Assembly (NCBI GenBank): GCA_963922205.1
Contig: CAWUHX010000080.1
Location: 256,814 to 320,813, forward strand
Direction: 5' to 3'
From: Romanomermis culicivorax
Lineage: Eukaryota; Nematoda; Enoplea; Mermithida; Mermithidae
DNA: 64,000 bases
Shown: positions 3,261 to 28,045 of the stretch, piece after piece
Numbering within the stretch: position 1 is the first letter of the stretch
Layout: each line of letters begins with the position of its first letter
The notes under the pieces: model-generated
Databases searched by the model: none
Told to the model about the DNA's origin: nothing
The model's input: only the letters and a program-made list of their open reading frames with translations
Translations under genes and position numbers: made by a program

Positions 3261-3538
3261 CATTCTTCGAATGGCACCCTTCTCATTCCCAGTCAATGAG
3301 GACTAGGGATTGGCACCCCTGACCCAGCCGCGTTGTCCATTTTTCTACAGCAGAACCGTAGGACAAGGCCGAGGTACACCATAGGTTTACCTGTTGTAGT
3401 ACCAGCTGGGTTAGGTTCCCAAAACAGAGACCATTAACGGAGTCACCCCATGGGGTCAGCATGTCCCTTGCAGTGTCATGGCCGTATTCCCTATGGAATA
3501 TGGTATGGGGTTTCCCATCAATGTGACTGATCACCAAT
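3261..3538 (+). other. Leader of element P, left of the Polinton
   Basis: Non-coding leader between the 5' LTR and the Polinton insertion. Its last bases carry one copy of the AATGTGAC motif that continues on the far side of the Polinton. The final six bases, ACCAAT, are the left target duplication. Confidence 0.65.
3533..3538. repeat. Polinton target-site duplication, left
   Basis: ACCAAT directly before the first AG of the left inverted repeat. It is identical to 17980-17985, and 6 bp is the size known for Polintons. Confidence 0.93.
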
Positions 3539-3790
3539 AGTAGTATATAGACCCCCCCCCTTTGGCGTAAAATTGAGAACCGCCTGTGTTAAAGATAGCC
3601 CTTGTAATGCATGGGAGAACAGCTGGGAGCACTGCTAGCTAAAATAGAGTGCACCCGTTCGCACTGGCCTTTAGGCCAGCCCCAGTGTCAGCCGCGAGGA
3701 GGCCGGTACACATGTGACACCAAAATTTTTTTGGGGATTTTTTATTTATTTGTTTTTTTGGTTTTTTCGATTTTTTGATTTTTTTTATAT
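3539..3790. repeat. Left terminal inverted repeat of the Polinton
   Basis: Begins AGTAGTATATAGAC followed by a C run, then about 250 bp that reappear inverted at 17337-17979. The inner end is an A/T-rich tract of T runs. AG is the known Polinton 5' terminus. Confidence 0.93.
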
Positions 3791-3874
3791 GCACGAATAT
3801 GTGTAATTTTTAAGTATCCACCTTTTACAAGGAATACCCGCCATATCTAAAGATGTGACTCGCAATGCCCAACT

Positions 3875-3977
3875 CTAGGCCGTCATTGGCTTTCTCACCA
3901 TGCACCTAGCGCCATTGCACTGCTGGCTTCTACCTGACCCTAGGCCGTCAGTGGCTCCTCACCATGCACCTAACACC
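3875..3977. repeat. Two direct repeats of about 39 bp
   Basis: CTAGGCCGTCA-TGGCT---TCACCATGCACCTA occurs at 3875-3913 and, with a few changes, at 3940-3977, between the left inverted repeat and the 3' end of the polymerase gene. Function unknown; the position would suit a replication- or termination-related element, but that is only a guess. Confidence 0.7.
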
Positions 3978-4128
3978 CTGTAGAAGCATTATGCGAAAGA
4001 TAACAAATAAACATGCAATAATAATAAAAAAAACAATGTGAACAACAAACAATAACATAAATATGGTAGTTTTTTTTTCCTTTGCCTATTTTTGTACATT
4101 TTTATGTTTTTTTTCGTCTTTTTGTGAT

Positions 4129-7100
4129 TTATATATCCAATGGAACTGTTGTTACGCCATCATCTAGCACTTTTCTTTTTATGTACAGGTAAGGCAGCCC
4201 CTGCTTCTTTTGTAAATATGACCACATTTTATTATCATTACTTCTCATTTGAAAACCAATGTTTTCACCTACTTGAGGGACTTTAGTATTGAGCACTGAA
4301 GCATACTTTTCAAAGTTCAAGGCATTAATTTTCTTCATCAATCCTTTGCAACTGACTTTGGTCTCTCCTTCACCAATGCCGATATAGGTTTTGGCTGCAA
4401 GACAGCACATGGCTGTGCCTTGCCATTCGATGAAGACCAGGGGTTCTTTTGTCTTCCTTGTTGATAACAAACCATTTAGGGTATATTTCTTTTATAAACT
4501 TGTCTTTTAACTCTGGTTTAACGGCGTCCAATAAATTTGTACACGATAATGCCAGATAAATACTGTCTGTATCGGTTTCCATGCACTGATACATTGACTT
4601 GTCGAAATAAATTTGCAAGACGTCGTAAAAAAATTCCAACATTTTGATCTTTGCCCAGTTGTAAACTGATAAACCAACAACAATTGGTAGATCCAAAGAT
4701 ATTTGGTCTTTTCGCATATGAACTTCAAAACAGTTTTCAGATATGCTTTTGATTTTCTTGATGTAAGGGCTGTAACTGGCATCCACAGCTCTTTTCTTAT
4801 CACAGTAGAACACATCAATATGCTTTTCTTTATTTGTCAATGTTTTCCCATATCCAGTATTACCCAATAATTTGTAAGTGTCCGCCAGCATGGCTAAATC
4901 TGGGTCTTGATCTCCTTCTCTCCTGTGTTTTGTCACTTTATCACAAAATGATTCAAATGGGCGGCCTTCATCATACCGAATAACTTCATAAATTTTTCCT
5001 AATTTTAGTCCATGGTTTACTAGGAATCTTATCATGGGTGTAGACATCATGATTTCCTTGCCAAAATAACTGCTTATCAGACTGGCTCTTGGTTTTTTCA
5101 ATTGATCCGTTTCTTGTGCATATCTCTTTATATGTTCTCCAATATCATCCAATCCAATGTTAGCATGCTTAATAATTGGTGGGAAATCTGCATATTTTTC
5201 TTTTAAGCTTTCTGGGGTTGAAATGTCCACTTTCGCAAAACCGAAAACTGATCCATTCAGTATAGCATTTGCCATCTGGGAATTTGTAATGAACCGTTGA
5301 TTGTAAAATGCCCGTAAGTTTTTCTTGTTTTCTTCAATGGCCTCCTTTTCAACGATCCAGTTAGCTGCTTCTTGGGCATTCTTATTTTTATTCTTTTGAC
5401 CAATTGGGCATCCGTGGCAATGCCAATAACATCCATAAAATTCGTATATCATGGCCAGTTCTGAGCAAAATCCATCGACTGGTAGGTAGCGAGGGCCGAC
5501 TTTCTTCTCTGGTCAATTGCCAAGATGCTGAATGAAACGCCCACACTTATGACTTTCTTGTTCCAACCATTCAATGGAAGCAGATTTTGATGAGCTCACT
5601 TTCTTAAAGCCTTTGTGACCTGTTGGTTTCCAATGATCAAAATGCCCAGTGGGAGTTGGCATTGCTTGAGCCCATAAATATAAAGCATTAAAATCTAATC
5701 CAATAATTGACTTGACAATTTGATCTGGATTGTTTCTTATGAATGTTTTGTCTTTGATTGCCAGCCTATTCATTACCATTGCTAAGCCTCCACGCATGCT
5801 CGATTTGAGTGAGTAGTGTAGATCTTTTGATTTTTCAGAAAACAGAGCGAAATGGGTATCTGGAATGCTTTTGAATAAGTAACGTTCAGTCACTCCAGGT
5901 AAGGACATCGCCTCTTTGAAAATATCAATGTTGAAGTTTGACCAGTAGATTTCTGCCATGTTCATACAGGCTTCCAGGAATGGTATTACATCCCTCAAAT
6001 TGTAAAATTTTAAATAATCAAGCATTGTGGTCATATTTTCCTCATTCCAATATCTTTGGCATTCTTCATAATCTTCCTGGCTGATGCCTACCTTGCGAAG
6101 GGTGCTGTAGAAGCAATCAATTGGTGGAAGTTGTTCTTCATAAAGTTTTTCAAACGAGTCCAAATATTCGTATGGGAAGTGAGCTTTTGTCAATTTTGCC
6201 TTGTACGCCCTCATGAAAGCGTCCAAACTAAATCCAGGGGCAGTGTATACACTTGCATCTAAAAATTTAAGTGTATCTGTTGATAAGCACAGGTAGGAAC
6301 CATTACGCAGTATTGCTCTTGGCCACATTGTGAATTCCTCTGATTGTACTGCTGCATCAACTAGTTTAGGGAATAAGTTTCGTTTGATCAAGTTTATATC
6401 ATATTTTCCTGAGTTAAATCCAAGACAGGTTAACTGCCTACAATATCTGGATAATCGACTTTTTAGCCCACATATAAAATTCAAGCGGCCTTTTTCCCTT
6501 CGGCTGTCTTTTTTGTTTTTGGCCAAGTTTTCTATGCACTTTTCGCAGTCTTTAATCTGTTGATCTAGTTCAGCAAATGTTGAGGCAAATTGCTTTGTTA
6601 AAATTTCATTTTGTGCAGCACTTATTGATTCCAAATAATCGAGCATTGCTTGTATGAGTGAATCTGGGTCTTCATCAATAAAACATTCTGGTTCTTCAAA
6701 GCCAGGTAGATTGGTGGCCACTGCGCTGGACACAGGAGTATGTTCGGCAGTGTAGATTAGCTTTTCCGAATTTGGCTGGGTGTTTTTTATCAAGAGTGAT
6801 TCAAAGTCATAAACAGCAATGAATGGGCAATATCGATCTGATTGAGGCACATAAATATCCGATGCATCTAGTTGTTCGAACAATGACTTCTTTACTTGGA
6901 AGACTCCACCGGGAAATTTGTGTCTCGTCTGTCCATTATGGCAATAAGTTTTTACATGAGCATTTAAATTCCAGGCTTTTTTGAAAAGACGACCACAGTT
7001 AAGGCACCCATATCGCTTTGCATATTGATCCAAATTAGTTATCAATGAAAAGTGGGCTTGCGAGTGTTCTGTTAGGCAAACATCCAAATTCATTAGGTTG

Positions 7101-8218
7101 CTATGTTTTCTCATAACGTTTCGCCAGCATGTAGCATCCCCATTTTCAGCAGTATGGAAAATTTGAATGTCAATGTTGAATAAGTCCTCTATTAGAGCCA
7201 AGTCATTAAATGGTACACCACTGAATTGGTCAACAATGGCTGGGATGTTTTTGCTCTGACAATATTTTGTAAAGCTTTGGTAAATAAAATTTGAATCTTC
7301 GAAGCTTCCTACCAAACAATGTGCTAGGCATCGAAACATGCACAAATTGTCTTTGAACCTATTATGGTTACTATCTTGAGTCATGGCCAGAATGTTATGT
7401 CTTTGATGGGCGATTTGCTCTGGCAAATTAAAGTTCAGACATCCTGCTACAAAATTTGTCTGTGGTACAACATAAAATTCAATATTTGTCACATTAGCCA
7501 AAAGCCATTTTGTATTGGGTCTTGTAAATTTTTCAGTAATGTCTATTTGTTGTAAATCTTGGGCTATTCTTGCAACGTCATCACTGTTCTTGATCAGCGC
7601 TGGATTATCCAATAAAGTAAAATTATTTTGGCAAGCATACCAATATTTAAGTTCGTCAGTTTCTTGATTTTTTAAAATGCACCCGACTGCAGCATCAACC
7701 TTGAAGCATTGTTTTTCTTTTAAATATATATCGCTAAGCATGTGTAGAAAATTTCCATTGTTTGCACTCCATCTATAGTTGTAGGTGTGGTCTAAGAAAT
7801 TTGTTGTTGTCTTATGCGTTTTAATTAATCGCCAATAGTTGGAAATTTCATTGTGTAGTTCAGCTGGATAATCAGCCAAATCTGGGCTTTCCAAATCCGC
7901 ATTTATTTCATAGCTGGTGCTGGGAGCTTCTTCTAATTCTGATGAAGGCGCTTCTGGTTTAATAAGCAAGCACCTGCTCACATGGTCATTTGACATTAGC
8001 TTTTTGCAGTCTGTAAATATGGCATTGCAGATTGCACATTCAAAGGCATCTGGATGCTTCACATTATAATGGCGTTTAAGGTTGTTCTCCTGACTGAACA
8101 CACTTTTGCACTGGGGGCAACGAAATCTAAATCCAAGGTGAATGGAATTTGTATGTTGAGCCAGGTATCTTTGATTTGAAAATGTTTTTCCACATTCAAG
8201 GCAGGAGATTTTCTCCAT
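4129..8218 (-). CDS. Protein-primed DNA polymerase B with N-terminal zinc fingers and OTU-like region (broken)
   Basis: Replicates the element by protein priming. From the N-terminus: two C2H2 fingers (about 8000-8210), an OTU-like stretch (DNLCMFRCLAHCL near 7330 with an HF about 280 nt on), and a third C2H2 finger (about 6950-7015). The exonuclease motifs follow: ExoI YDFES near 6800, ExoII FNSGKYD near 6400, ExoIII YNLRD near 6000. Then polymerase motif A DFNALY near 5690, B KLLGNTGYGK near 4860 and C DTDS near 4565. The ATG at 8218 precedes the first finger. Two breaks are seen: an in-frame TGA at 5513-5515, and a frameshift near 4440-4470, after which the last roughly 110 codons continue in another frame. 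All catalytic motifs are intact. The OTU assignment is by motif resemblance only. Confidence 0.95.
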
Positions 8219-9131
8219 AATTGGGGAAATAATTAATCCAATGAATAAAAAGTTAAATCCAAAAGGTAAAATCCAAAGCGAAAAATCCAAAGATTAATAT
8301 TATTAAGTAATCCAATAGAATATAATTGAGAGCTTGTAAGCAAATCAACCATTCACTTGTTTGACAAAATTAAAGAATAACTTTTCTCAAATTTTCTCTC
8401 CTTTTATACTTTTTTGAGTCCTATACCTCATATACATAAAAAACTACAGTAAGAAGGGTAAGCAGCTACTTACTTGCTTGTCACATGACATTATCAACAA
8501 AAATTTGCACAAAAATTTCCTGAAATATCTGGAAAAATCCTGTTTTTTCTGGTTTCTTTATGATTCATGCTTTTTCTCTTTTTTTGATCTTTTTAAAATT
8601 TTAATTTATATGGAATGCACACATAAAAACTTTTTGTCTTTTCTGGAAGCATCATTATGCTGCCGTCATTCCCTCCCAGCCATACTGGATGCTATTTTAC
8701 TGACATCATTTTCTCTAGCTAGCTACCTTTTCTTTTGTGTATGATGACATCATCACTTTGTGAAAATTGCCTGGCTAAGCAGCTATAATGCACTTTTCTC
8801 AAGAAATTTTAGTATGTCTTATATATAAAAAAAATATTGCACAATGTTACAAATCATTGGATCAACAAAGCAGAGCAGAAGCTCAAACTTATGGATCACC
8901 TGACCGGAGGTTACTGTAGAATTCAGTTGAGCAGATATTGCCAGCTGACCTCTAGGGTCAAGGCAGCTAAATAACTTTAGTTATCTTTTCAGTCAACTTA
9001 TGACGTAGGCATAAGCTAGCCATTTTTTTTTGACCAGTTAGCTTATTGAGTATGAATAGCATTACCCAGTGTATTGAACATCGTAGGCTTGTTTTTATGC
9101 ATAGACTTGTGCAGAATGAAAATTGATTGTT
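8219..9131. other. Divergent intergenic region of the Polinton
   Basis: Separates the minus-strand polymerase from the plus-strand gene block, so it should hold divergent promoters. On the minus strand, TATAAAAGGAG (8408 downward) lies 190 nt before the polymerase ATG. A TGACC-TCTA-GGGTCA inverted repeat lies near 8950. No convincing gene was found. Confidence 0.6.
8398..8408 (-). promoter_or_regulatory. TATAAAAG box, candidate polymerase promoter
   Basis: On the minus strand the text reads TATAAAAGGAG. It is the only such box between the polymerase ATG (8218) and the plus-strand gene block. At 190 nt from the ATG, it implies a longer leader than for the plus-strand genes. Confidence 0.4.
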
Positions 9132-9142
9132 TATAAAAGTTG
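9132..9142 (+). promoter_or_regulatory. TATAAAAGTTG box upstream of the 71-aa membrane protein
   Basis: TATAAAAGTTG, 35 nt before the ATG at 9167. Member of the box family repeated before most plus-strand Polinton genes. Confidence 0.65.
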
Positions 9143-9166
9143 TCACTATATGTGAAAAGCATAAAA

Positions 9167-9382
9167 ATGGATAGCAATAAAACTATCGGACATTTTCTAG
9201 CTTGCCTAGAAAGATACAACGGCAAGACTATTTATCACGAGATTTGGTACTGCATTGCATTATTAGCAGTTTTGACGATTTTGACATTTCTAAAATTGTT
9301 GGGAAAGCATCTAGAAAAGCTTTTTAGTAAAGAATCAAATAATACCAGGAATAATGCTAGGTTTAATCTAGCCAATGTATAA
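9167..9382 (+). CDS. Small single-pass membrane protein, 71 aa
   Basis: Function not recognised. The ATG at 9167 is preferred over an upstream non-ATG extension because it lies 35 nt from a TATAAAAGTTG box. Residues about 27-45 form one hydrophobic segment (YCIALLAVLTILTFLKLL), with a Lys/Asn-rich C-terminal tail. First gene of the plus-strand block, directly before the integrase. Small membrane proteins are common in Polintons and adinto-like viruses; a role in membrane interaction is inference. Confidence 0.6.
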   Translation: MDSNKTIGHFLACLERYNGKTIYHEIWYCIALLAVLTILTFLKLLGKHLEKLFSKESNNTRNNARFNLANV

Positions 9383-9391
9383 ATAAAAGTT
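9378..9391 (+). promoter_or_regulatory. TATAAATAAAAGTT box upstream of integrase
   Basis: A variant combining TATAAATA with AAAAGTT, 38 nt before the integrase ATG and overlapping the stop codon of the preceding gene (9380-9382). Confidence 0.55.
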
Positions 9392-9415
9392 CTCCTAATC
9401 ATCAACTTTGTAAGA

Positions 9416-10468
9416 ATGGATGAGCTACTAGAAAAAATATATTACAACCCACACACTGGGTACTGCAGTGTTCAAAATCTGTACAAGAGGGCTAGGGCTG
9501 AAGACCCTAAAATAAAATTATCTAGTGTTAAGGATTGGCTACAAAAGCAGTCAACGTATACAATACACAGGTATGCTAGGCGTCCATATCCCAGAAATGC
9601 AGTGCTTGTCAGTGATATTGATGAGCAGTGGCAAATGGACCTTGCTGACTTGAGTTCCTTATCAAAGTATAATGATGGCTTTAAGTTCTTGCTAAATTGT
9701 ATTGACGTTTTATTAAAGTTCGCCTGGTCTGTGCCCTTGAAGAACAAGTCTGGAAGTTCTATTCTGGATGCTTTTAATCTTATTCTAGGTTCTGGTCGAA
9801 ACCCCCAAAAGATACAAACAGATGCTGGTACTGAATTCACAAATAAATCTTTCCAGGCTCTCTTAAGGAAACTCAATATTGATTTTTTTACAACAGCTAG
9901 TGAGACTAAGGCTAGCATTGTTGAACGTTTCAACAGGACATTGAAAGAGAGAATGTGGAGGCACTTTACAAAGAACAGAACCTATAGGTATTTAGACGTC
10001 CTACCAGATTTACTGAAAGGTTACAACTCCAGTAAGCATAGAACCATTGGAATGACCCCTAACCAAGTGAATGATGCCAATAAAGCAAATATTGTAGAAA
10101 AGTTGTTTAGTAAATGCAAGATGCACGTCCAGTATAAACTACAGCCTGGTGACAAGGTACGTATCAGTAAAGTAAAGGGAACCTTCGAAAAGGGGTACAC
10201 CCCAAATTGGAGTGATGAAATTTTTATTGTTCACGAAAAGAAAGCCAGGCAGCCCCCAGTATATGTAATTAAGGACCAGCTTGGTGAAGTTGTAAAGGGA
10301 ATTTTTTACGAACCAGAATTACAAAAAATTGATGAGATCCCTGATGTATGCATAATAGAAAAGGTGGTAAGAACTAGAAAGAGAGGTGGAAAGATTGAGT
10401 ATTTGGTAAAGTGGCGAGGATATCCAGAAAAATTCAACAGTTGGGTAACTGAATTGATTAAGCTGTGA
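9416..10468 (+). CDS. Polinton integrase, retroviral-type with chromodomain
   Basis: Inserts the linear element DNA, producing the 6-bp duplication. The 350-aa protein has an rve fold with catalytic residues visible as D75 (QMDLADL), D136 (QTDAGTEF) and E170 (SIVERFNRTLK). A C-terminal chromodomain lies at about residues 308-345 (CIIEKVVRTRKRGGKIEYLV, then W, G, W positions). Chromodomains in this family are thought to steer target choice. The ATG at 9416 is the first in frame. The gene is intact, unlike the polymerase. It follows the membrane-protein gene by 33 nt with its own TATA-like box. Confidence 0.97.
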   Translation: MDELLEKIYYNPHTGYCSVQNLYKRARAEDPKIKLSSVKDWLQKQSTYTIHRYARRPYPRNAVLVSDIDEQWQMDLADLSSLSKYNDGFKFLLNCIDVLLKFAWSVPLKNKSGSSILDAFNLILGSGRNPQKIQTDAGTEFTNKSFQALLRKLNIDFFTTASETKASIVERFNRTLKERMWRHFTKNRTYRYLDVLPDLLKGYNSSKHRTIGMTPNQVNDANKANIVEKLFSKCKMHVQYKLQPGDKVRISKVKGTFEKGYTPNWSDEIFIVHEKKARQPPVYVIKDQLGEVVKGIFYEPELQKIDEIPDVCIIEKVVRTRKRGGKIEYLVKWRGYPEKFNSWVTELIKL

Positions 10469-10534
10469 GTTACAGTATGCCATATAGCAAGTGATCTGCA
10501 AGATCAAATAGGCTGATCTGGGCTCTTATTTTAG

Positions 10535-10571
10535 TATATAAGGCGCTGAAAACTGAAGTACTTCATTCAGT
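10535..10571 (+). promoter_or_regulatory. TATATAAGG box with palindrome and Inr-like TCAGT
   Basis: TTAGTATATAAGG (TATA at 10535), then a perfect 12-bp palindrome TGAAGTACTTCA at 10554-10565, then TTCAGT ending about 35 nt below the TATA. All lie within 54 nt of the ATG at 10589. This differs from the TATAAAAGTTG class. Confidence 0.55.
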
Positions 10572-10588
10572 AAATTTGATTAACTGCA

Positions 10589-10882
10589 ATGGAGTCGAAA
10601 AAAGTCAAAGCTCCCATAGAATTGTGCGCTAGAAATATGCCAAGACCGATGTATCCACTTATGATACAGTTGTGTTATTTCTGTCAGAAAAATAGCTCTG
10701 AAAAAGAATGCTTTCAAACCAAAAATGGCTACACCTATTTTACGATAGGCATGTGCCAAAAATGTATGGAATACAATCAAGCCTTGCAAGATGCTGGAAA
10801 GGCGATGCTAAGGAAACAACTCGAAGAACGTGAAAAATTATTTTTCAATGGTCAAAATAAAGATGAATCATTGAATAATTAA
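10589..10882 (+). CDS. Small zinc-binding protein, 97 aa
   Basis: Unrecognised family. Two CXXC knuckles (CYFC near residue 29 and CQKC near residue 58) plus an extra Cys suggest a single zinc-binding fold, followed by a charged helix rich in Lys/Glu (about residues 68-85). Starts at the only sensible ATG. It lies alone between two intergenic spacers and has the TATATAAGG-type promoter, not the virion-gene type. A regulatory or host-interaction role is a guess. Confidence 0.7.
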   Translation: MESKKVKAPIELCARNMPRPMYPLMIQLCYFCQKNSSEKECFQTKNGYTYFTIGMCQKCMEYNQALQDAGKAMLRKQLEEREKLFFNGQNKDESLNN

Positions 10883-11242
10883 AAAAAATTTTGTAAAAAA
10901 TGAAAATAAAGTGAAAAAAAAATAAAAATAAAAATAAAAAATAAAAAACAAAAAAAAACCCCCAAAAATATATATATATATAAAAAAATGCAAATTTTAT
11001 CTTGTTCACTCAATCATCTATGCACAGGTGCGCAAAGTGCATAAGTGCACAGATGCCTTTCACGGGGGCGGCGGCGGCGGCGGGCTCCCAAGACCTACAG
11101 TAGGTCAGGAATATTTGATCATCAAGTACAATTACAGTTTTTACATCATAAATTTAGTATATAAGTAGGAATTTTTTTTTGAATACCAAAGCTGATTGAT
11201 TTGTTAAACTTTCTAATCTGCTGACTGGTCGTATTTTTAAAA
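10883..11242. other. Spacer with poly-A tracts, GGC run, palindrome and TATATAAG box
   Basis: A-rich low-complexity DNA (10883-10990) is followed by an abrupt GGC repeat near 11065-11085 in otherwise AT-rich sequence. A perfect 15-bp palindrome GACCTACAGTAGGTC follows at 11092-11106, then TTTAGTATATAAG (TATA at 11158), 85 nt before the next ATG. No gene seen. Confidence 0.6.
11158..11165 (+). promoter_or_regulatory. TATATAAG box upstream of the 113-aa gene
   Basis: Shares TTAGTATATAAG with the box at 10535. Lies 85 nt before the ATG at 11243; the palindrome at 11092-11106 is 52 nt upstream of it. Confidence 0.5.
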
Positions 11243-11584
11243 ATGGAGTGCACCTTTATCATTTTCGCCCTTAGAATGGGTACCTTTCTGTACAGGCCTT
11301 ATAGGCAGAGAGATGTTGCCAAATACGCATCTTTCTTCTGGGAACGTTTGGCAGAGGGCTATAAGGGTCATTGGAAATTATTGGCTAAAATTATTAATGA
11401 TAGAGATGGTCTGACAGGCAGAAGAAAACTAGTTGGATTTTGGCATTTCGCCAAAGCTTTGGAAGGACTAGTAAAGACCTTCAGTGCAGAACCATTATTG
11501 TACGAAATTTGGATGAATTTGACCCCGGAAGCGAGAAGGGAATTTTTTAGAGATGATGACCCTGGCATTGATTGTACGGATTGA
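11243..11584 (+). CDS. Unknown Polinton protein, 113 aa
   Basis: Not recognised. A soluble, Trp/Phe- and Arg-rich protein with probable alpha-helical content and an acidic tail (DDDPGIDCTD). No signal peptide or clear membrane segment. The ATG at 11243 opens the frame. It sits just upstream of the ATPase-capsid block but has the TATATAAG-type promoter, so it may be expressed apart from the virion genes. Confidence 0.65.
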   Translation: MECTFIIFALRMGTFLYRPYRQRDVAKYASFFWERLAEGYKGHWKLLAKIINDRDGLTGRRKLVGFWHFAKALEGLVKTFSAEPLLYEIWMNLTPEARREFFRDDDPGIDCTD

Positions 11585-11699
11585 TTGTGTGTAATATAGT
11601 GCATGAAAAATCAATAAAAATGAATAAAAAACAAAAAACAGAAGAAAAAGCAAAAAAAAAGAGTGCACGATTCTGGTGTATGCCAGGTGTTGCACAAAA

Positions 11700-11710
11700 T
11701 ATAAAAGTTA
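11700..11710 (+). promoter_or_regulatory. TATAAAAGTTA box upstream of ATPase
   Basis: TATAAAAGTTA, 41 nt before the ATPase ATG at 11741. Confidence 0.65.
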
Positions 11711-11740
11711 ATTAGCATATAATTAAAAAATAAAATAAAA

Positions 11741-12364
11741 ATGAGTTTATGTTTCAAGCATCCATTTACATGCATTGTTGCTGGTCCAACCAAGGCTGGC
11801 AAAACCACTTTTGTGAAAAATTTATTGTTAAACATGGAGTATCTAATTGATCCTATTCCTCAACATGTATGGTGGTACTTTAGTGAAAAACAACCAGCCT
11901 ACAAGGAGCTCGAGGGGAAGGTCTCCTTTTTCCAAGGGCTACCAGATATGAGTTTTATCAGGGAATTGGCCCCTAAGCCTCAGCTCTTGGTACTCGATGA
12001 CCTTATGCAAGAAATGAGCAACAATGGCCAACTTGTTGAGCTTTTTACTAGAGGGTGTCACCATCTTAACGTCTCTGTTATTCATATTGTACAAAATGTA
12101 TTTTTTAAGGGTCTTCGTACTTCTAGAATAAACGCTGAGTATCTAGTCTTAATGAAGAATCCCTCCGATAAATTGCAAGTAAAAACTTTATCCAGGCAAC
12201 TATTTCCAGACAATGTCAAATACTTTTTAGAGTCTTTCGAAGACGCCACTTTCCAGCCCTATAGTTATATAATTATTGACTTATCACAAACTACTCCAGA
12301 AAAACTTAGGCTCAGAACTGATATTTTTTCAAAATTTCCTACAGTTTATTTGCCAAAAATATAA
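11741..12364 (+). CDS. A32-like DNA-packaging ATPase (FtsK/HerA type)
   Basis: Pumps genome DNA into the capsid in related viruses. The 207-aa protein has Walker A at residues 15-23 (GPTKAGKTT) and Walker B at 82-88 (LLVLDDL with D86 and D87), followed by a conserved helical region. Length and motif spacing fit Polinton/adenovirus-like packaging ATPases. The ATG at 11741 is 41 nt from a TATAAAAGTT box. The reading frame is intact, and its stop codon overlaps the next promoter box. Confidence 0.96.
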   Translation: MSLCFKHPFTCIVAGPTKAGKTTFVKNLLLNMEYLIDPIPQHVWWYFSEKQPAYKELEGKVSFFQGLPDMSFIRELAPKPQLLVLDDLMQEMSNNGQLVELFTRGCHHLNVSVIHIVQNVFFKGLRTSRINAEYLVLMKNPSDKLQVKTLSRQLFPDNVKYFLESFEDATFQPYSYIIIDLSQTTPEKLRLRTDIFSKFPTVYLPKI

Positions 12365-12370
12365 AAGTTG
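12360..12370 (+). promoter_or_regulatory. TATAAAAGTTG box overlapping the ATPase stop codon
   Basis: TATAAAAGTTG; its TAA is the ATPase stop (12362-12364). The next ATG (12396) is 36 nt downstream. Confidence 0.65.
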
Positions 12371-12395
12371 ATTATTTTCAGTTTATTGAGAAATC

Positions 12396-12740
12396 ATGGC
12401 ACATGATCGCCTAAGACGCAATATTGACTATGTTAGGGTGTTGGGGAAAGCTAAACCCAAACAAAGAAAAGCCCTAATTAGCACAGCTGATAAAGATTTG
12501 ATTCTCTGTCTTTGCGAATGCATCCTAAACCTGCTTCATGGTAATATAAAAGTTGACAACAACACTATGAGCAAGTTGAGTTCTCATAAAAAAAATTTAC
12601 GCACATTGGCTGATAAGAAAACTAGCTTGAAACAAAGAAAAGATATTTTAGAGCAGAAGGGAGGATTTCTACCAGTCTTGTTAGCCCCTATATTAGGAAT
12701 AGTGGGACAGCTAGTTGCGGATGCAATTACGAAAAAATGA
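12396..12740 (+). CDS. Small basic Polinton protein with C-terminal GGFLPVLLAPIL hydrophobic motif
   Basis: 114 aa; basic N-terminal and middle parts, then a conserved-looking hydrophobic end (QKGGFLPVLLAPILGIVGQL). This layout recurs in Polinton/adinto-like genomes as a small virion-associated protein of uncertain role; core-protein or membrane-active functions have been proposed for similar proteins (my recollection, not provable here). Its end overlaps the next ATG by 4 nt (12737-12740), so the two may share a transcript. A second TATAAAAGTTG lies inside the gene at 12545. Confidence 0.75.
   Translation: MAHDRLRRNIDYVRVLGKAKPKQRKALISTADKDLILCLCECILNLLHGNIKVDNNTMSKLSSHKKNLRTLADKKTSLKQRKDILEQKGGFLPVLLAPILGIVGQLVADAITKK
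12545..12555 (+). promoter_or_regulatory. Internal TATAAAAGTTG box
   Basis: Lies inside the 114-aa gene, 22 nt before an in-frame ATG at 12567 and 192 nt before the next gene's ATG at 12737. It could drive a shortened product or the downstream gene, which otherwise has no box of its own. Confidence 0.5.
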
Positions 12741-13429
12741 TGCACACAAATAAGATGATTCTCGTTCCTCATGATATTGGTCGGAGGGAAGAGCTGGCCA
12801 CCAGTGTAATGTCAAATTTGGATAAAGATATGAGTGACATTCTACAAAACAGAGCATTAGCTTCTGATGCTAAAATAATTTTATATAATCAGGTTTTGCA
12901 CAGACATAGGCAAGTTGAACAGGATCAAACAAGACCCTTTGAACTAAAATTAACGGAGCAAGCTACCCCTTCAGTTAGCAAAGAAGAGGTTGATGCGGGA
13001 AAAAGTTCGCCCGAGAAAGATGAACTTTATCAAAAGACCATGAAAATTGTTCCAAAGAAATGGCATAGTCAGGCTGATATTTTGTACGACTATGCTACTA
13101 ATAATCCACACATGGAATGGTCTGATAAGGGGGAAATGATTATTAATGGCAACAAAATTACGGGAACTAATATTGTTGATTTGATTTCTGATGTTGTACG
13201 CATGGGGTCCAAAAGACAACCAGCACTGGGAGCAGATATATTTGTAAAAAATTTGATTAAGGAAAATGTTCCCAGGGATGTTTTTGTAAACAAGTCTAGA
13301 TTAAATGTTGGAAGTGACGCTGAAGATGTTTACGCCTCTCCAGTTGGGCCACCATCAGCACGTAAAAAAGTAAAAACCCCTAAAAGCAATAGAAGAATTG
13401 GGAGGTGGCTAGATTTTGGGCAAGTATAA
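12737..13429 (+). CDS. Conserved-type Polinton structural/accessory protein, 230 aa
   Basis: Not assigned to a characterised family. The N-terminal third is helical (HTNKMILVPHDIG start). A middle region has regularly spaced Trp/Gly (about residues 105-180), and the tail is basic (ARKKVKTPKSNRRIG). Proteins of this layout lie between the ATPase and MCP genes in other Polintons and are usually labelled PX/PY; this is a family-level resemblance only. Start overlaps the previous gene, stop overlaps the next TATAAAAGTTG box. Confidence 0.75.
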   Translation: MMHTNKMILVPHDIGRREELATSVMSNLDKDMSDILQNRALASDAKIILYNQVLHRHRQVEQDQTRPFELKLTEQATPSVSKEEVDAGKSSPEKDELYQKTMKIVPKKWHSQADILYDYATNNPHMEWSDKGEMIINGNKITGTNIVDLISDVVRMGSKRQPALGADIFVKNLIKENVPRDVFVNKSRLNVGSDAEDVYASPVGPPSARKKVKTPKSNRRIGRWLDFGQV

Positions 13430-13435
13430 AAGTTG
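13425..13435 (+). promoter_or_regulatory. TATAAAAGTTG box overlapping the 230-aa gene stop
   Basis: TATAAAAGTTG; its TAA is the stop at 13427-13429. The ATG at 13468 is 43 nt from the box start. Confidence 0.65.
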
Positions 13436-13467
13436 TTAATTACCTATGCGAATAAGAAACTAAAAAG

Positions 13468-13896
13468 ATGAGGCAGTATTTTAATCCAGAAGATTACGCA
13501 ACTTGGCACCAGTACTATACTGAGCAAGCTGACCAGACGGGCTATGGGCGGCTCATTGGCTTCAAAGGCACCCCGTACCAACGTGGTGGTGGTTTAGGTA
13601 GCTTTTTTAGGTCCCTGTTTAGAATGGTGGTGCCTGTCATAAAATCTGCCGCTGGCCATATTGGAAAACAAGCCTTGGCGACCGGAGCCCACATTGCCGG
13701 GGACCTGGCGCAAGGAAGACCAATAGTAGAATCCCTTGAAGAACATGGGCGATCAGCCCTCTCCACATTAGCGCATAAAGCTGGTCACGCCCTACAACGT
13801 CAGACTGGTGAGGGTTTGGGTAGCAGGCCGAAAGGTATAAAAGTTGACAAACGTGACATATTTACCAGAAAAAAGAAAAAGAATGTCTCTCATTGA
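13468..13896 (+). CDS. pVI/core-like small virion protein, 142 aa
   Basis: A Gly-rich amphipathic segment (RGGGLGSFFRSLFRMVVPVI, about residues 38-57) is followed by an Ala/Gly-rich helical part and a very basic end (RKKKKNVSH). Such a layout resembles membrane-lytic or core proteins of adeno- and adinto-like viruses (inference). Its 3' end overlaps the MCP start by 14 nt in another frame, and the MCP promoter box lies within its coding sequence. Confidence 0.75.
   Translation: MRQYFNPEDYATWHQYYTEQADQTGYGRLIGFKGTPYQRGGGLGSFFRSLFRMVVPVIKSAAGHIGKQALATGAHIAGDLAQGRPIVESLEEHGRSALSTLAHKAGHALQRQTGEGLGSRPKGIKVDKRDIFTRKKKKNVSH
13836..13846 (+). promoter_or_regulatory. TATAAAAGTTG box upstream of MCP
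   Basis: TATAAAAGTTG inside the end of the preceding gene, 47 nt before the MCP ATG at 13883. Confidence 0.65.
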
Positions 13897-15130
13897 TTCA
13901 ATTTCAAGTGTTAGCACAAAGTCCGAACTGGACTTTTTCACTGTGCCACCAATGCAGGTGGTTATAAAACGGGGCTATTGGGACGAAATAAATCCAATAA
14001 ATCCAGTTACTAATGATGGACCTTACGAATTTCGGATTCCACCAGATCCCCATATGATTCAACTAAGTAAAAACTATTTGTGCATGCTTTTGAAGTTGAC
14101 TATTCCAGCTCCAATTCCCGGGGCAGCCCAAATAATTGCCCCTATCAATTTAATTGCAAAGACCTTTTTCAGACAAGTGAAGCTCTTTCTTAATGGTCGC
14201 CTTGTCCACGATAGTGGGGACAAGTATGCTTACAGAGCCTTTTTTGAGACTGATCTCAACTTCGGCAGTGATGCGAAGAACAGCCATCTACAGTCTTCTC
14301 TATACACTCCAGAGGCTGGTGATAAAATTGACACAGCCGATTGTGAAGGGTTCAAAGACAGGGTAAAATACTTTGAAAATGGAAAAGTAGTGGAGGTGAC
14401 AGCCCCACTCCATATCGACTTGTTTATGCAAGACCGATACTTACTCAGTAATACGGAAGTAAAGTTAGAACTGATTAGAAATAGCAATGCATTTGTTTTG
14501 CAGTGTCCAGCTGGTGATATAGATAATGCAAAACTTGAAGTTTCTCAAATGAAGCTTTTGATAAGAAAAGTTGAAGTCCTTGATAGTGTGGGATTGGCGC
14601 TAGAAAAGACTATACTCAAAACACCAGCCAAGTACCCAGTGAGACGGGTGCAAGTGATGAGCTTGCATATTGCGAGTACCACACAATCCACACCCCTTAA
14701 CACATTATTTACGGGTCAGCTACCTCGCAGAATGATTATGGCATGTGTTGATGCAGATGCCTATCGTGGAGAGCTGAAAAAATCTCCATTTAATTTCAAA
14801 TGCTATAGCATCAGTGAGGTTAAAATAATTTGCGGGGGACAAACATTTCCAGCCAGTCCATTCAAGCTGGACTTTGCCAATGATAAGTACATTCGTGCTT
14901 TTGATCAACTTTTTGAAACCCTGGACATTGCTAAGGATAACAAGGGCAATGGGATAACTAGAAGTAATTTTAAAAATGGCCAATGTTATTTTGCTTTTGA
15001 TTTGACCCCGGATGAAGATGACAGTGGGCACTGGGATTTAATTAAAGAGGGTACAACAAGCATCGAACTGACTTTTGCAAATAGAATTCCAGACACAGGT
15101 TATAGAAGTTATAATATATGCAGAATTTGA
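13883..15130 (+). CDS. Major capsid protein, double jelly-roll type
   Basis: 415 aa, intact. The ATG at 13883 (MSLIDSISSVSTKSELDFF) is chosen over an upstream non-ATG frame opening because it follows a TATAAAAGTTG box. Typical Polinton MCP features are the N-terminal SELDFFTVPP-like opening, the early IPPDPHMIQLSKNYLCMLLK stretch and the C-terminal TGYRSYNICRI-like end. The family forms pseudo-hexameric capsomers of an icosahedral shell (established for Polinton MCPs by modelling). Placement between small virion proteins and the protease matches other Polintons. Confidence 0.93.
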   Translation: MSLIDSISSVSTKSELDFFTVPPMQVVIKRGYWDEINPINPVTNDGPYEFRIPPDPHMIQLSKNYLCMLLKLTIPAPIPGAAQIIAPINLIAKTFFRQVKLFLNGRLVHDSGDKYAYRAFFETDLNFGSDAKNSHLQSSLYTPEAGDKIDTADCEGFKDRVKYFENGKVVEVTAPLHIDLFMQDRYLLSNTEVKLELIRNSNAFVLQCPAGDIDNAKLEVSQMKLLIRKVEVLDSVGLALEKTILKTPAKYPVRRVQVMSLHIASTTQSTPLNTLFTGQLPRRMIMACVDADAYRGELKKSPFNFKCYSISEVKIICGGQTFPASPFKLDFANDKYIRAFDQLFETLDIAKDNKGNGITRSNFKNGQCYFAFDLTPDEDDSGHWDLIKEGTTSIELTFANRIPDTGYRSYNICRI

Positions 15131-15181
15131 TAATTTAATAATGATTGATAAGAATAGACACATTTTTAACGATTATACTGC

Positions 15182-15688
15182 ATGAATACTAGTCAGATTT
15201 CAAGTCTACTAAACAGTGACCAAGCCCTGAGACAGATTTTTAATCGAGTGTTCCCTATTGATTGTTTGCCTTTCATTGATACAGTTCCAGCTGCATTAGT
15301 CATAAACTTAGATGAGCACAATGAACCTGGTTCCCACTGGGTGGCATTATATATTGACGTAAGGCATAACTGTGATTACTTTGATAGCTACGGACTATAT
15401 CTGAGCAAGCCACTATTGGAATTCATAAAGAAAAACTCATATTCCTCTAATTTTAACAGAAAGTGTGTTCAACAATACCTTACATCTTCCTGTGGTCAAC
15501 TGTGCATCTACTTTTTGCTATGGAGGGTTAGGGACGTATCTATGAGGAACCTTGTTGGCAGCTTAGAACAAAGCTACGCTGATGAATATGTCACTGGCTT
15601 CATTAATCAACTCTTTAGGATAAATACTGTTGTGCAAGAGGATACTTTTGTCCTTGATCAGTTAAGCAGAAACTATAAAAGTAGTTGA
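15182..15688 (+). CDS. Adenain-like maturation cysteine protease
   Basis: 168 aa with the catalytic triad of the Ulp1/adenain family: H52 (GSHWVALY), D68 (DYFDSYG) and C104 (SSCGQLC, preceded by Q97/Q98 for the oxyanion hole). It would cleave virion precursors during maturation. The ATG at 15182 is clear. No exact TATAAAAGTT box precedes it; a one-mismatch TATAGAAGTT lies at 15111, inside the MCP end. The promoter box of the next gene overlaps its 3' end. Confidence 0.95.
   Translation: MNTSQISSLLNSDQALRQIFNRVFPIDCLPFIDTVPAALVINLDEHNEPGSHWVALYIDVRHNCDYFDSYGLYLSKPLLEFIKKNSYSSNFNRKCVQQYLTSSCGQLCIYFLLWRVRDVSMRNLVGSLEQSYADEYVTGFINQLFRINTVVQEDTFVLDQLSRNYKSS
15674..15687 (+). promoter_or_regulatory. 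TATAAAAGTAGTTG box upstream of mCP
   Basis: TATAAAAGTAGTTG, overlapping the protease stop. Lies 44 nt before the mCP ATG at 15718. Confidence 0.6.
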
Positions 15689-15717
15689 TTGAGCTTAGAA
15701 TTAAATTTTATAAAAAA

Positions 15718-16506
15718 ATGGATCACTCACAGTTTTTTATTACTTTACCCAGTAACGCCCAAACTGACTCGAGTAATACTGCTTCGAGTTTTATTGTAAG
15801 GTTACCCTATAGGCTCGTTTTGCACGGGGAGTGGGAGTGCGCCCTTTGTGAATTTATATACCCAAATACTTGGTATAATTTAGTTCCAGATGACCATATA
15901 ATTTCGTTTTATGATATAGTAACTAATACGAGTCATAAACTCAAAATACCATGCACACGTTATGAAGCCATCACTGATTTGGTTGAAGCCATTCAACAGT
16001 CTCTAAGCTATTTGAGTGAACAGGAAAAGGTCACATATACAGAATTTATTGCCCTTTCATACAGAAGGCTGGCACGAGCAGTTATACTGAAAATTGACCT
16101 TACGAGGATTAAAAGCTTTAAAATGAGTGACCATTTGTTGTACATGTTAGGCTTTGACAAGGATCAATTTCAAAAAGACCCCGTTAATCCTGACCGGATA
16201 AAAATTGCTGCTAAGCATCCTGCAGACATGAAGGCTGGCTTAGAGACCATGTACGTTTATTGCAATATTATTGAACAGCAGATTGCTGGTGATATTCTAG
16301 CACCACTGCTCCGTATTGTCAATATAGAAGGGAACTTTGGAGACATTATTGATAAGATTTATATCGCCCCTCATTACATACCACTTTTGATAAAAGATAT
16401 AGAAACAATTGAGATTTCAATTAGAACTGATACTGACAAACCTATCGAGTTTGCGACTGGAAAAACTATAGTCAAACTACACTTTAGAAAAAGAAGTATA
16501 TTTTAA
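15718..16506 (+). CDS. Minor capsid (penton-like) protein
   Basis: 262 aa from the ATG at 15718, 44 nt after a TATA-type box; an upstream TTG extension is unlikely. The opening (HSQFFITLPSNAQ, then NTASSFIVRLP and WECALCEFIYPNTW) and the end (IEFATGKTIVKLHFRKRSIF) are typical of the Polinton protein assigned as mCP, a single jelly-roll penton. With MCP, protease and ATPase it completes the morphogenesis module. It ends 2 nt before the ATG of the TBP-like gene, so both may be on one transcript. Confidence 0.88.
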   Translation: MDHSQFFITLPSNAQTDSSNTASSFIVRLPYRLVLHGEWECALCEFIYPNTWYNLVPDDHIISFYDIVTNTSHKLKIPCTRYEAITDLVEAIQQSLSYLSEQEKVTYTEFIALSYRRLARAVILKIDLTRIKSFKMSDHLLYMLGFDKDQFQKDPVNPDRIKIAAKHPADMKAGLETMYVYCNIIEQQIAGDILAPLLRIVNIEGNFGDIIDKIYIAPHYIPLLIKDIETIEISIRTDTDKPIEFATGKTIVKLHFRKRSIF

Positions 16507-16508
16507 AA

Positions 16509-17067
16509 ATGGAAGTTCAAAATATGACTGTAACAGCTGAGCTAGGCTGCAAACTTCATTTAGATTCCCTTATGAAAAAATTGGATAACACAAAGCTAAG
16601 CAGTGGGAAATTTAGATCCCTAATTTGGCACGTTGCAACTCCCAAGTGCTGCCTATTGTTATATGAAAATGGGAAGCTAGTTTGTGTGGGAATTAAAAAT
16701 GTTGATCAGGCCGTGAGTGGTATAGATTTCGCCACTGAGACACTAATCAGCCTAGGTTACAGGGCTAGACCAAGAAAATTCAAGGTGTGCAATATAGTTG
16801 GATCCCACACTACCATATATGGTATAAATGTGGAAAATTTCTATAATGCCTTAGCAATGTGACTACACACCAGAGCTATTCCCAGCTCTAAAATACATGA
16901 TCACTAAATCAGGACCTTGTGCACTGATTTTTCATAAAGGGAAAATTATCATTACTGGTGCTAAATCAATAAAGGAATTGCAAGCTAACTTTCAAATTGT
17001 ACTTGGCCAGATCAGGCAATCTGATTGTCAAGTGCATGCAAATGAAGTAGAATCGAGAATACTGTAG
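16509..17067 (+). CDS. TATA-binding-protein homologue encoded by the Polinton (frameshifted)
   Basis: Two halves match the two repeats of the TBP core. Half 1 (16509-16862, 117 aa) has an opening with QN and LGCKLHL, F35, Y52 in LLLYENGK, and CNIVGSH with N95. Half 2 (about 16864-17067, +1 frame) has YTPELFPALKY and ALIFHKGKIIITGAK. The intercalating aromatics (F35, Y52 for Phe, Phe in ELFP, Phe in LIF) and both minor-groove Asn (N5, N95) are present. Together about 184 residues, the size of a TBP core with no N-terminal domain. In repeat 1 the usual TGAK reads VGIK. The halves are separated by a TGA at 16860-16862 and a one-frame shift, either a true mutation or a sequence error. Not homopolymeric there. 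Confidence 0.92.
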
Positions 17068-17076
17068 GAAAATACC

Positions 17077-17097
17077 TATATAAAGAGCTGAGCTCTT
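17077..17097 (+). promoter_or_regulatory. TATATAAAG box with 15-bp palindrome
   Basis: TATATAAAG at 17077 overlaps a perfect odd palindrome AAGAGCT-G-AGCTCTT at 17083-17097. Lies 44 nt before the ATG at 17121 and just after the TBP-like gene stop. Confidence 0.55.
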
Positions 17098-17120
17098 GGG
17101 TTCTGTTATTCTATTTTAAA

Positions 17121-17329
17121 ATGATGCCTTGTAAACGTTGTGGAAAGGTGCTGTGCATAATGTTCACTACGATTTATGCAAATATGTTCAGTCTGGACAT
17201 TATCGAGAACTAGGGCCAGATCCTTTACCAGCTATTAAAATAAAAAGACCAAAAGAACCTAGTCATTGTGACCATAGCTTTTCTATCGGGTCTATGTGGA
17301 GGTTCAGTTTCAAAATTATAAAACCATAA
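17121..17329 (+). CDS. Small zinc-binding protein (frameshifted)
   Basis: The ATG at 17121 gives MMPCKRCGK. Within a few codons the sensible frame moves to the one that runs to the TAA at 17327-17329 and carries His, Tyr, Cys and Gly positions such as HNVHYDLCK. C-x2-C followed by H and C suggests a small zinc knuckle. A one-base shift lies in or near the GGAAAGG stretch at about 17140-17147. Function unknown; last gene before the right inverted repeat, with its own TATATAAAG promoter. Confidence 0.55.
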
Positions 17330-17336
17330 AAAATAA

Positions 17337-17979
17337 GAAAAAAAAATCAAAAAATCGAAAAAACCAAAAAAAAAATAAATAAATAAAAAATCCGAAAAAA
17401 AATTTTGGTGTCACATGTGTACCGGCCTCCTCGCGGCTGACACTGGGGCTGGCCTAAAGGCCAGTGCGAACGGGTGCACTCTATTTTAGCTAGCAGCTGC
17501 CAAGCTGCAATTAAAATATATGCGAAAAAAAGCCAACGTATGATTTGTGCTCGGGGCACTATATCGTACATGCTTTTGGAAAGAATGTGTCTGTGTTGTG
17601 CATTGGGTCATACACAAGAAAAGTTTTGGGTTTGGATAGTAGTAGCTGAAGTAGCTGATGACGTATGAACATGCTGGAAAGATTAACTGTGCATTGTTTA
17701 TTGAATGCTAAAAAAGTTATGTAGCATAAAAAAGTGCTTTTGTTTATGAAAAGTTAGCAGGATAAAATGATGATGACGTAAATGCTGGAAAGTTTTCATT
17801 ATAGCTAACTATAATCATGACGGAGCTGGCCAAGCTGACCAAATTTATGCACATGGACGTGACGTTGCATGTTTAACACGTGTGTGCTCCCAGCTGTTCT
17901 CCCATGCATTGCAAGGGCTATCTTTAACACAGGCGGTTCTCAATTTTACGCCTAAGGGGGGGGGGGTCTATATACTACT
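17337..17979. repeat. Right terminal inverted repeat of the Polinton, with extra segment
   Basis: Inverted match to 3539-3790 in two blocks: about 17337-17495 (inner) and about 17885-17979 (outer, ending CTATATACTACT). About 390 bp between the blocks (roughly 17496-17884) have no counterpart on the left. Small substitutions also distinguish the two repeats. Confidence 0.9.
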
Positions 17980-17985
17980 ACCAAT
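17980..17985. repeat. Polinton target-site duplication, right
   Basis: ACCAAT directly after the terminal CT of the right inverted repeat; identical to 3533-3538. Confidence 0.93.
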
Positions 17986-24319: not shown

Positions 24320-25820
24320 AGCCGCCCGACGGCTGAAAACAGTAAAATTTGGTGTATATTTACCAGCACCGTTTGTAAATAGTTTGTATATAATAAATTG
24401 GGCCTTTGTGACACTACTGTTCTTAGGAATGAGCTCTGCAATACATGCTACTCAGTACCAATTTTGTGGTCTTTCAGGAAGCAGTCATCCACTTGAGCTA
24501 CCCCAAAAAGTTGAATGCAAACCACCAAAATCTTCGTGGAGTCCATGATGCATGAATGTTACAGTATATGTACCTATTTCTGATCCAATCACTACTTTAG
24601 CATACAAGTGCACTTTGCGAAACTGTAAGGTGTGCACTAACACTGGTTTTTTCGGATCTAGGGGCATTACTGCAGACGTCATAACCACTCAGCATCTAGC
24701 ACCTGCGGCATGTATGCTAGCACATCGCACGAAGGTGTTTGGTTTACAAAAGCTCGTGGAAATACATCCTGGCTTTTATAGCACTAACCAAACACTGGAA
24801 TTGATGTACTCATGGTGCTGCAATGACGTGTGCAAGACAGTGACTAACCTCTTCATCGAGGAGGGACAGGTCGCTTTGTGGGATGGCACTACTGCTCTAA
24901 GTACCTTAGGAGATGTAGGTGGATGCAGTCCCACTGCAGGTTAATGCACTACTCTAGACGAGGTAATTGTTTGGCCTGCCACAAACTTTACAGCACAGTG
25001 CCATTATCGGCCTCAGGGTAAATACACTGGGTCTTTATCAGGGAACCATATCATTATTGATGATTTGCAGGTTGCCCTGAAGATCCCAGGAAACTCTCAC
25101 GTCTTTCGCTTGTGTCCTGACCTCCAGTTGAACACAGTGCAAATGGATCAGGGTCTTCTTCTACTCATCCACGGAAGATTTAATTTGACCCAAAAATTTT
25201 TCGGATTGGCGAAGGACTCCCGTCCTGACTCTGTCAATGCCAAACTGAACTACCTGGCTCAGCAGATCAAAGAGTCAGAAATTGACAGTTTTCGATTCAT
25301 TTGGCTTGAGTTGTGTTCTCATGCTCAATGCCACCTTGATCTGACTTGGCAGTTGCTTCGTTTTGACCCTACACTAGGAGCCCGGGCATTCCTGCAAAGA
25401 AATGATCTGACTGCGGAATTTAGGGGTGAAGCACTGACGATATGGCTATATCAAAAGGTCAACGCCACTTATGTCTACCATTCGTACCGGGTGGGGGACA
25501 TGTGTTACAAGTATCTACCCGTACAGGTTGGCGGTACCATTTATTTTGCCACCCCCGGTGGCCTAGATCTCACTAAATTCAGTCCAAAAGTGCCGTGTGA
25601 CCACCACTTCACGGTGATTTTCTGAAATCACTTGGGCTGGTTTACTGAGTCCAGCACGGTCCATGTGAGCCACATTCTGCTTGAACTGTTCTTGAAACAG
25701 CGCTTCAATGTCACTCACTTTGACGCTCCTGCACTCTTTCACGATCAGTTGGTGATGACCCCCTAAAGTTTTGCTTTCTTTAAACAGTACGTTTATAAGA
25801 CTGAGCAAATTTAAGCGGTC
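24303..25820 (+). pseudogene. env-like glycoprotein gene of element P, ectodomain (decayed)
   Basis: The ATG at 24303 overlaps the gag end. A hydrophobic signal-type segment (INWAFVTLLFLGMSSA, about 24395-24445) leads into a Cys-rich region with WCCNDVC near 24810 and N-glycosylation-type NVT and NQT sites. The same frame continues to 25820 but is cut by stops at 24546 (TGA), 24942 (TAA), 25623 (TGA) and 25764 (TAA). It looks like a retroviral-type surface glycoprotein, but I cannot assign it to a named class. It lies between gag and pol instead of after pol. Not functional as it stands. Confidence 0.6.
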
Positions 25821-26606: not shown

Positions 26607-26664
26607 ATGTGGTAGAACTGCCACTTCTTCTGACAACGGCTGAAATTGATCAGGTCGATCCCTG

Positions 26665-27159: not shown

Positions 27160-27184
27160 TGACTCCCTGCCTGACCCAGGTCAT

Positions 27185-28024: not shown

Positions 28025-28045
28025 GACACAGGTATCACTGACCTC

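Follow-up and report, generated by a model that had tools for sequence, protein, structure and literature searches.

The nematode Romanomermis culicivorax harbors a Maverick lineage in which a gene for a TATA-binding protein (TBP), encoding the TBP core without an N-terminal tail, is a standard gene. One copy lies in the window (the whole stretch of 64,000 nt that was analyzed), and the original prediction that this Maverick encodes a TBP of its own is now strongly supported, with an intron-less, selected gene found beside the capsid genes in most of the members examined. A TBP gene in company with the conserved TATA boxes described below points to an element that supplies its own factor for starting transcription. 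TBP and TBP-like proteins are already known from giant viruses, mirusviruses, poxviruses, and herpesviruses, and what is new here is the kind of element that carries one. Several groups of eukaryotic DNA viruses are considered relatives or descendants of Polintons, and we know of no account of the timing of capsid expression in them; an element-encoded basal transcription factor with matching promoters makes that question directly testable. The element TBP also serves as a natural experiment that shows which parts of the TBP surface a parasite can do without when it reuses RNA polymerase II (Pol II). Should related elements of other hosts also carry a TBP, the gene would count among the old ones of this virus class.

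The Element and Its TBP Gene

The element is a Maverick/Polinton (Polintoviricetes), with terminal inverted repeats that have AGT-type ends, a 6-bp target site duplication (TSD), a Polinton-type family B DNA polymerase (PolB), an rve/chromo integrase, an A32-like packaging ATPase, and a protease (Table 1). Its PolB has 1126 relatives, the best of them at 62% identity, and sea cucumbers are represented among the hosts. The major and minor capsid proteins (MCP and mCP) found no match in Pfam, NCBIfam, or PDB sequences, and no RNA polymerase gene is among the frames annotated in the element. The right terminal repeat contains 383 nt (17501-17883) without a counterpart in the left arm. Because this stretch is present in all four other copies fetched from group A (the subfamily closest to the window's gene, see below), where all 641 nt of the right arm could be aligned, it is a feature of the family.

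Table 1. Features of the window element, its promoter boxes, and distant TBP genes elsewhere in the genome
Feature	Position	Strand	Remarks
Maverick/Polinton, 14,441 bp, ends AGTAGT...ACTACT	3539..17979		TSD, termini, terminal repeats
Target site duplication ACCAAT, left	3533..3538		exact 6-bp copy
Target site duplication ACCAAT, right	17980..17985		exact 6-bp copy
Left terminal inverted repeat	3539..3786		
Right terminal inverted repeat	17339..17979		
DNA polymerase B gene, broken by in-frame stop and frameshift	4129..8218	-	DNA_pol_B_2 1.7e-07
TATAAAAGTTG, 35 nt before ORF81	9132..9142	+	
Integrase (rve + chromo)	9416..10468	+	rve 3.3e-09, Chromo 2.4e-09
TATAAAAGTTA, 41 nt before ATPase	11700..11710	+	
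Packaging ATPase (Pox_A32-like)	11741..12364	+	Pox_A32 5.7e-07
TATAAAAGTTG, 36 nt before ORF116	12360..12370	+	
TATAAAAGTTG, 43 nt before ORF146	13425..13435	+	
TATAAAAGTTG, 47 nt before MCP, within ORF146	13836..13846	+	
Major capsid protein (MCP)	13883..15130	+	name from position and earlier sequence note
Cysteine protease (Peptidase_C48/C5-like, weak)	15182..15688	+	Peptidase_C48 3.4e-04; Peptidase_C5 0.0065, below cut-off
TATAAAAGTAG, 44 nt before mCP, at protease gene end	15674..15684	+	
Minor capsid protein (mCP)	15718..16506	+	name from position and earlier sequence note
TBP-like gene piece 1: repeat 1 and start of repeat 2, premature stop	16509..16862	+	
TBP-like gene piece 2, +1 frame: rest of repeat 2 and stop	16858..17067	+	
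Distant intron-less TBP gene, subfamily E	L062 1495-2007		
Distant intron-less TBP gene, subfamily F	L063 3002-3535		
Distant intron-less TBP gene, subfamily F	L064 2982-3509		

As originally described, the TBP gene lies within the transposon, starting 2 nt past the mCP stop and internal to the right terminal repeat. One frameshift near 16857 divides the window copy into a piece 1 of 117 aa (16509-16859) and a piece 2 of 69 aa (16858-17064). The motifs on which the prediction was built are all present in the translations (LGCKLHL, YTPELFPALKY, GKIIITGAK, N5, N95, and VGIK in repeat 1), as are aromatic residues at four positions (F35 and Y52 in piece 1, F8 and F25 in piece 2); we take the Asn pair to be the minor-groove contacts and the four aromatics to mark the DNA-kinking positions. 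When the pieces were searched separately in Pfam, each matched PF00352 (TBP) only, piece 1 at 3.7e-17 with 62.4 bits over profile positions 3-82 and piece 2 at 1.3e-12 with 47.8 bits over positions 31-83, where the cut-off is 22.9 bits. Two PF00352 stretches are found in seven of seven relatives scanned (E 1.3e-34 to 2.4e-44), compared with one per piece in the window copy. A search of PDB sequences returned 35 distinct matches for each piece, 34 of them named TBP, TFIID, or TBP fusion and the remaining one, 4wzs_D, carrying a locus name only. Compared with 30 cellular TBPs, piece 1 is 26-30% and piece 2 31-47% identical, and a strict TBP DNA pattern has one match in the window and none in 100 shuffles. 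For piece 1 a structural match to TBP is given by its predicted model (mean pLDDT 90.9), for which Foldseek ranks 1-44 in the PDB are all TBP entries or TBP-containing transcription complexes, with a top TM-score of 0.88. The same model matches predicted viral TBPs weakly (two matches with E <= 0.001), and piece 2 folded alone gives a poor model with a pLDDT of 59.9.

The TBP copy in the window died recently, and it is the family that makes up the functional unit. Compared with the divergence of the protein, the frameshift is recent, because the two terminal-repeat arms differ by few mismatches (five, plus gaps, in aligned blocks of 162 and 97 columns). One could instead propose that a programmed frameshift joins the two pieces and that the window copy is functional, given that the stop at the shift is UGA with C as the next letter, a slow-terminating context. 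We find this hardly credible, since four copies that are 97-98% identical to piece 1 read through the same place uninterrupted and the polymerase of the window element is broken too.

A Gene Family under Selection

Comparison of piece 1 with the genome of the window (359 Mb) gave 150 scored matches among 219 candidates, the window included; 98 of the 150 have no internal stop, and 67 are also at least 170 aa long. By identity to piece 1 the matches fall into subfamilies A (97-98%), B (about 75-77%), C (about 69-71%), and D (about 43-45%), with E and F more distant. Intact versions at the same locus, which the original prediction asked to look for, do exist, in that complete TBP frames follow mCP in other genome copies: mCP lies directly upstream of TBP in all 20 fetched copies (by its 3' end only in L022) and in three of three further ones, and the TBP frame measures 170-195 aa in 17 of the 20, being shorter in L016, L020, and L028. 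Viewed from the capsid side, 84 of 102 MCP rows have a same-strand TBP match at most 2.5 kb downstream, seven have TBP only at 2.7-15.5 kb, and 11 have none within 20 kb. These pairing counts are lower bounds, as 101 of 1580 MCP candidates were scored and some rows are fragments; 87 of 170 TBP matches are unpairable with any listed MCP row.

The substitution pattern across copies indicates that the element TBP is under purifying selection. Of 14 pairs tried (L026, a near-duplicate, being excluded), eight gave dN/dS values, five were saturated, and one had no synonymous change. The ratio is 0.11-0.23 in all five estimable between-group pairs, 0.15 for L023/L024, and 0.27 for L018/L019, which differ by very few changes; L029/L030 looks neutral, with a dN/dS of 0.85 and P 0.43 in a simpler test. 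That simpler test found a deficit of nonsynonymous changes in six of seven pairs (P <= 3e-05), with P 2e-07 for the unsaturated pair L023/L024. In a simulation of neutral drift, a yeast TBP core brought to 30-45% identity acquired a mean of 6-8 stops, and just 6 of 1000 runs ended with one stop or none.

The gene of the host is a different one. The best matches to yeast TBP, at C95:239337-240082, are 70-75% identical and form two exon-like blocks in different frames, which reads as a canonical, intron-split host gene separate from the element TBP. The phylogeny proposed with the original prediction agrees: in a tree of 23 rows, which holds no animal TBP paralogue (TLF/TRF), the host TBP groups with eukaryotic TBPs (98/99) and the element TBPs A-D form a group of their own (98/98), to which E and F attach weakly (88/89, flagged for long branches). 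LGCKLDL-like motifs and NxVGS point to eukaryotes, not archaea, as the source. We give almost no weight to the idea that a host TBP pseudogene was captured once, in the window copy only, which would have undone the prediction. The frameshift of the window copy fits it; the roughly 150 genome matches with their 67 long stop-free frames, the purifying selection between groups, the intron-split and different host TBP, and the rarity of stop-poor outcomes under neutral drift all speak against it.

In the distant subfamilies E and F, the first DNA-contact positions of TBP are close to canonical. The E gene adjoins a frame, presumably a polymerase N-terminus, that is 45% identical over 167 aa to the frame downstream of TBP in a group D element. 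No recognized element gene was seen in 3.7 kb around either F gene, and subfamily F is not claimed as Maverick. A protein-database search with piece 1 produced no candidate sharing three words, and one with an alignment that included cellular TBPs scored 7997 sequences, 7993 of them cellular TBPs. Scans of IMG/VR with both TBP pieces, MCP, a PolB piece, a PolB alignment, and an element-TBP alignment confirmed no relative. Two contigs retrieved with the TBP DNA pattern (L001 and L002) carry one identical TBP that groups with archaeal TBPs and were rejected.

Conserved Boxes before Capsid and Packaging Genes

On the window element TATAAAAGTTG occurs five times on the plus strand and never on the minus strand, where an order-3 Markov model gives a mean of 0.06 and a maximum of 2 in 300 runs; it occurs once in the other 29.4 kb of non-duplicated window. 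Allowing up to one mismatch yields eight plus-strand matches, six of them 35-47 nt before genes (Table 1) and two within genes (12545 and 10095). Six of the 12 listed plus-strand genes are without a box of this type, including ORF267, ORF100, and ORF119; the integrase gene has TATAAATAAAAGTTC.

The promoter count was extended to 39 fetched loci of four subfamilies, using only the starts that could be located and excluding L046 (C117), in which no element gene was seen. The core TATAAAAG stands 25-65 nt before 74 of 78 located starts in the four subfamilies (ATPase 12/13, ORF116 13/13, ORF146 11/14, MCP 16/16, mCP 22/22), counts that include near-identical copies and hence are not independent, and it is found in all 20 gene-by-subfamily cells. 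The background rate is 3.2% of random 48-nt windows from the same loci. At these 39 loci the box is absent before protease starts (0/21) and TBP starts (0/23). The TBP gene in two D copies read has its own TATAAATA about 72 nt upstream, and no such upstream box was seen in seven A-C copies, where a transcript shared by mCP and TBP would account for its absence. The letters after TATAAAAG are TTG, TTA, or TAG in A-C and different in D, and the DNA-contact changes of the element TBP and this subfamily-specific 3' flank may have evolved together. The original suggestion that the element redirects transcription to its own promoters thus gains indirect support from conserved boxes before the capsid and packaging genes.

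Other boxes and small genes were seen nearby. ORF100 (10589-10882) and ORF119 (11243-11584) share an upstream TTTAGTATATAAG box, which has two occurrences in the element and none in the rest of the non-duplicated window and is possibly another promoter class; ORF100 has two CxxC motifs and looks zinc-ribbon-like by eye. Right after TBP lies a small zinc-finger-like gene (Cys-Cys-His-His-Cys, 17122-17328), frame-broken in the window copy, with a TATATAAAG box about 45 nt upstream in the window; in groups A, B, and C there are copies with related DNA, or a related reading, after TBP.

Surfaces Kept and Surfaces Changed

In yeast numbering, N69, N159, F99, F190, F207, S163, and T215 are kept in all eight tabulated element rows, F116 is Tyr in A-C, and V71T is accompanied by T124V in all nine A-D rows compared and in neither E nor F. 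Among the positions that we take to contact TFIIB, every row compared has E188, L189, and P191, and E186 is changed in A-D. On helix H2, whose residues presumably contact TFIIA, NC2, and Mot1, no A-D row retains K133, R137, K138, Y139, or R141; K145 is retained in B2 and C, and K127 in every row. The first stirrup has a new sequence in A-C and reads YNP in D. For surface positions chosen by hand for their presumed contact roles, and with groups A and D tested, group A equals the host at 16 of 21 DNA/TFIIB positions and at 2 of 14 TFIIA/H2 positions (Fisher P 0.0005), and group D does so at 15 of 21 and 4 of 14 (Fisher P 0.018). It had been proposed that VGIK in place of TGAK in repeat 1 could change contacts or specificity. 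The part on contacts stands, with V71T/T124V and, in A-C, F116Y; a changed DNA specificity is not required because TATAAAAG is, as we assume, an ordinary strong TATA box.

A Proposed Role and Its Alternatives

We consider it fairly probable that the element TBP nucleates Pol II transcription of the capsid and packaging genes. The protein would bind and bend the TATAAAAG boxes and, once bound, would recruit TFIIB and host Pol II, the outcome being a dedicated program for capsid and packaging genes. Because the DNA contacts and most TFIIB contacts are kept while the changes fall on most basic H2 positions and, in A-C, on the first stirrup, the element TBP probably acts outside TFIID and escapes control by TFIIA, NC2, Mot1, and the TAFs, rather than reading a new DNA sequence. 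Host TBP is expected to bind such ordinary TATA boxes too, which makes supply of TBP and escape from its regulators a more likely gain than new specificity. The same expectation counts against the proposal as a whole, as do the genes for TBP, protease, ORF267, ORF100, and ORF119 without a box, the 11 MCP rows without TBP within 20 kb and the seven with a more remote TBP, the neutral look of the pair L029/L030, the single occurrence of TATAAAAGTTG in the rest of the window, the changed E186 in A-D, and the K145 kept in B2 and C.

The ordinary nature of the boxes could also mean that host TBP serves them and that the element TBP is a competitor, occupying host TATA promoters or tying up TFIIB and so damping host transcription. 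A bare core without most of the presumed regulator contacts could resist removal from DNA. Nevertheless, the boxes are concentrated before capsid and packaging genes, and a pure competitor need not keep the TFIIB contacts E188, L189, and P191, so that we judge competition unlikely. Less likely still is that the protein acts not in transcription but in replicating, packaging, or integrating the DNA, for instance through a bend that it puts into the TATATA-containing element ends. The termini do read AGTAGTATATAG and the gene adjoins the capsid genes, but the TFIIB contacts are kept, a TATA regulon exists, and terminal binding has no other support. Returning to transcription from the element's own promoters, it is possible, although we hold this with less assurance, that an anciently captured, virus-specific TBP without the surfaces for TFIID, TFIIA, NC2, and Mot1 control forms, with a dedicated TATAAAAG capsid and packaging regulon, a self-contained promoter-recognition module.

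Comparison with Known Systems

The most economical reading, a TBP that works with host Pol II on the promoters of capsid and packaging genes, gives the element protein a role comparable to that of the TBP-like proteins of beta- and gammaherpesviruses. These proteins (EBV BcRF1, KSHV/MHV68 ORF24, CMV UL87) are members of a viral pre-initiation complex, and the likeness lies in a virus-encoded TBP-fold factor, the use of host Pol II, and late (capsid) genes with a box where TATA would stand (PMC4893493). Compared by description, the herpesvirus proteins are about 10% identical to TBP, use TATT boxes, and need partner proteins (PMC4893493), whereas the element TBP is a true core, 26-47% identical to cellular TBPs, with TATAAAAG instead of TATT boxes and no partner genes known. 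TBP homologues are also described in giant viruses (ASFV B263R, PMC11311002; mimivirus R453, PMC2245910), in mirusviruses (PMC10132985), and in mirusvirus-like elements of an alga (PMC10675990). The ASFV protein works beside a viral RNA polymerase (PMC11311002), unlike the TBP of the window element, which has no such gene among its annotated frames. The TBP/TFIIB-like pair of poxvirus VITF-3 resembles the element TBP in that it is related to TBP and serves viral genes of a single temporal class, and differs by an elaborated ring-forming fold, a viral polymerase, and an AT-rich element without a defined TATA consensus (PMC12917281).

Vertebrate Mavericks share with the window element the AGTAGT/ACTACT ends, their commonest end motif, as well as PolB, integrase, ATPase, protease, and accessory regions, although their gene order differs; the terms TBP and transcription factor are absent from the text of that paper (PMC8097293). 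Among the open-access papers listed in literature searches, none reports a TBP in a Polinton. Relative to cellular eukaryotic TBPs, the element protein has the two-repeat core, the minor-groove Asn pair, the four kinking aromatics, and most TFIIB contacts, but it is without most of the H2 basic residues, the N-terminal tail, and introns, and it carries V71T/T124V in A-D and F116Y in A-C.

Outside the element, the window holds a 20-kb duplication (19745-39817 and 39940-60009, 99.94% identical) that flanks a gap of 100 N and is probably an assembly or unmerged-haplotype duplication. An LTR-retrotransposon-like coding region with an H2C2/rve integrase spans 22311-30569, and its frames at 24.5-26.6 kb may, as an impression only, be envelope-like.
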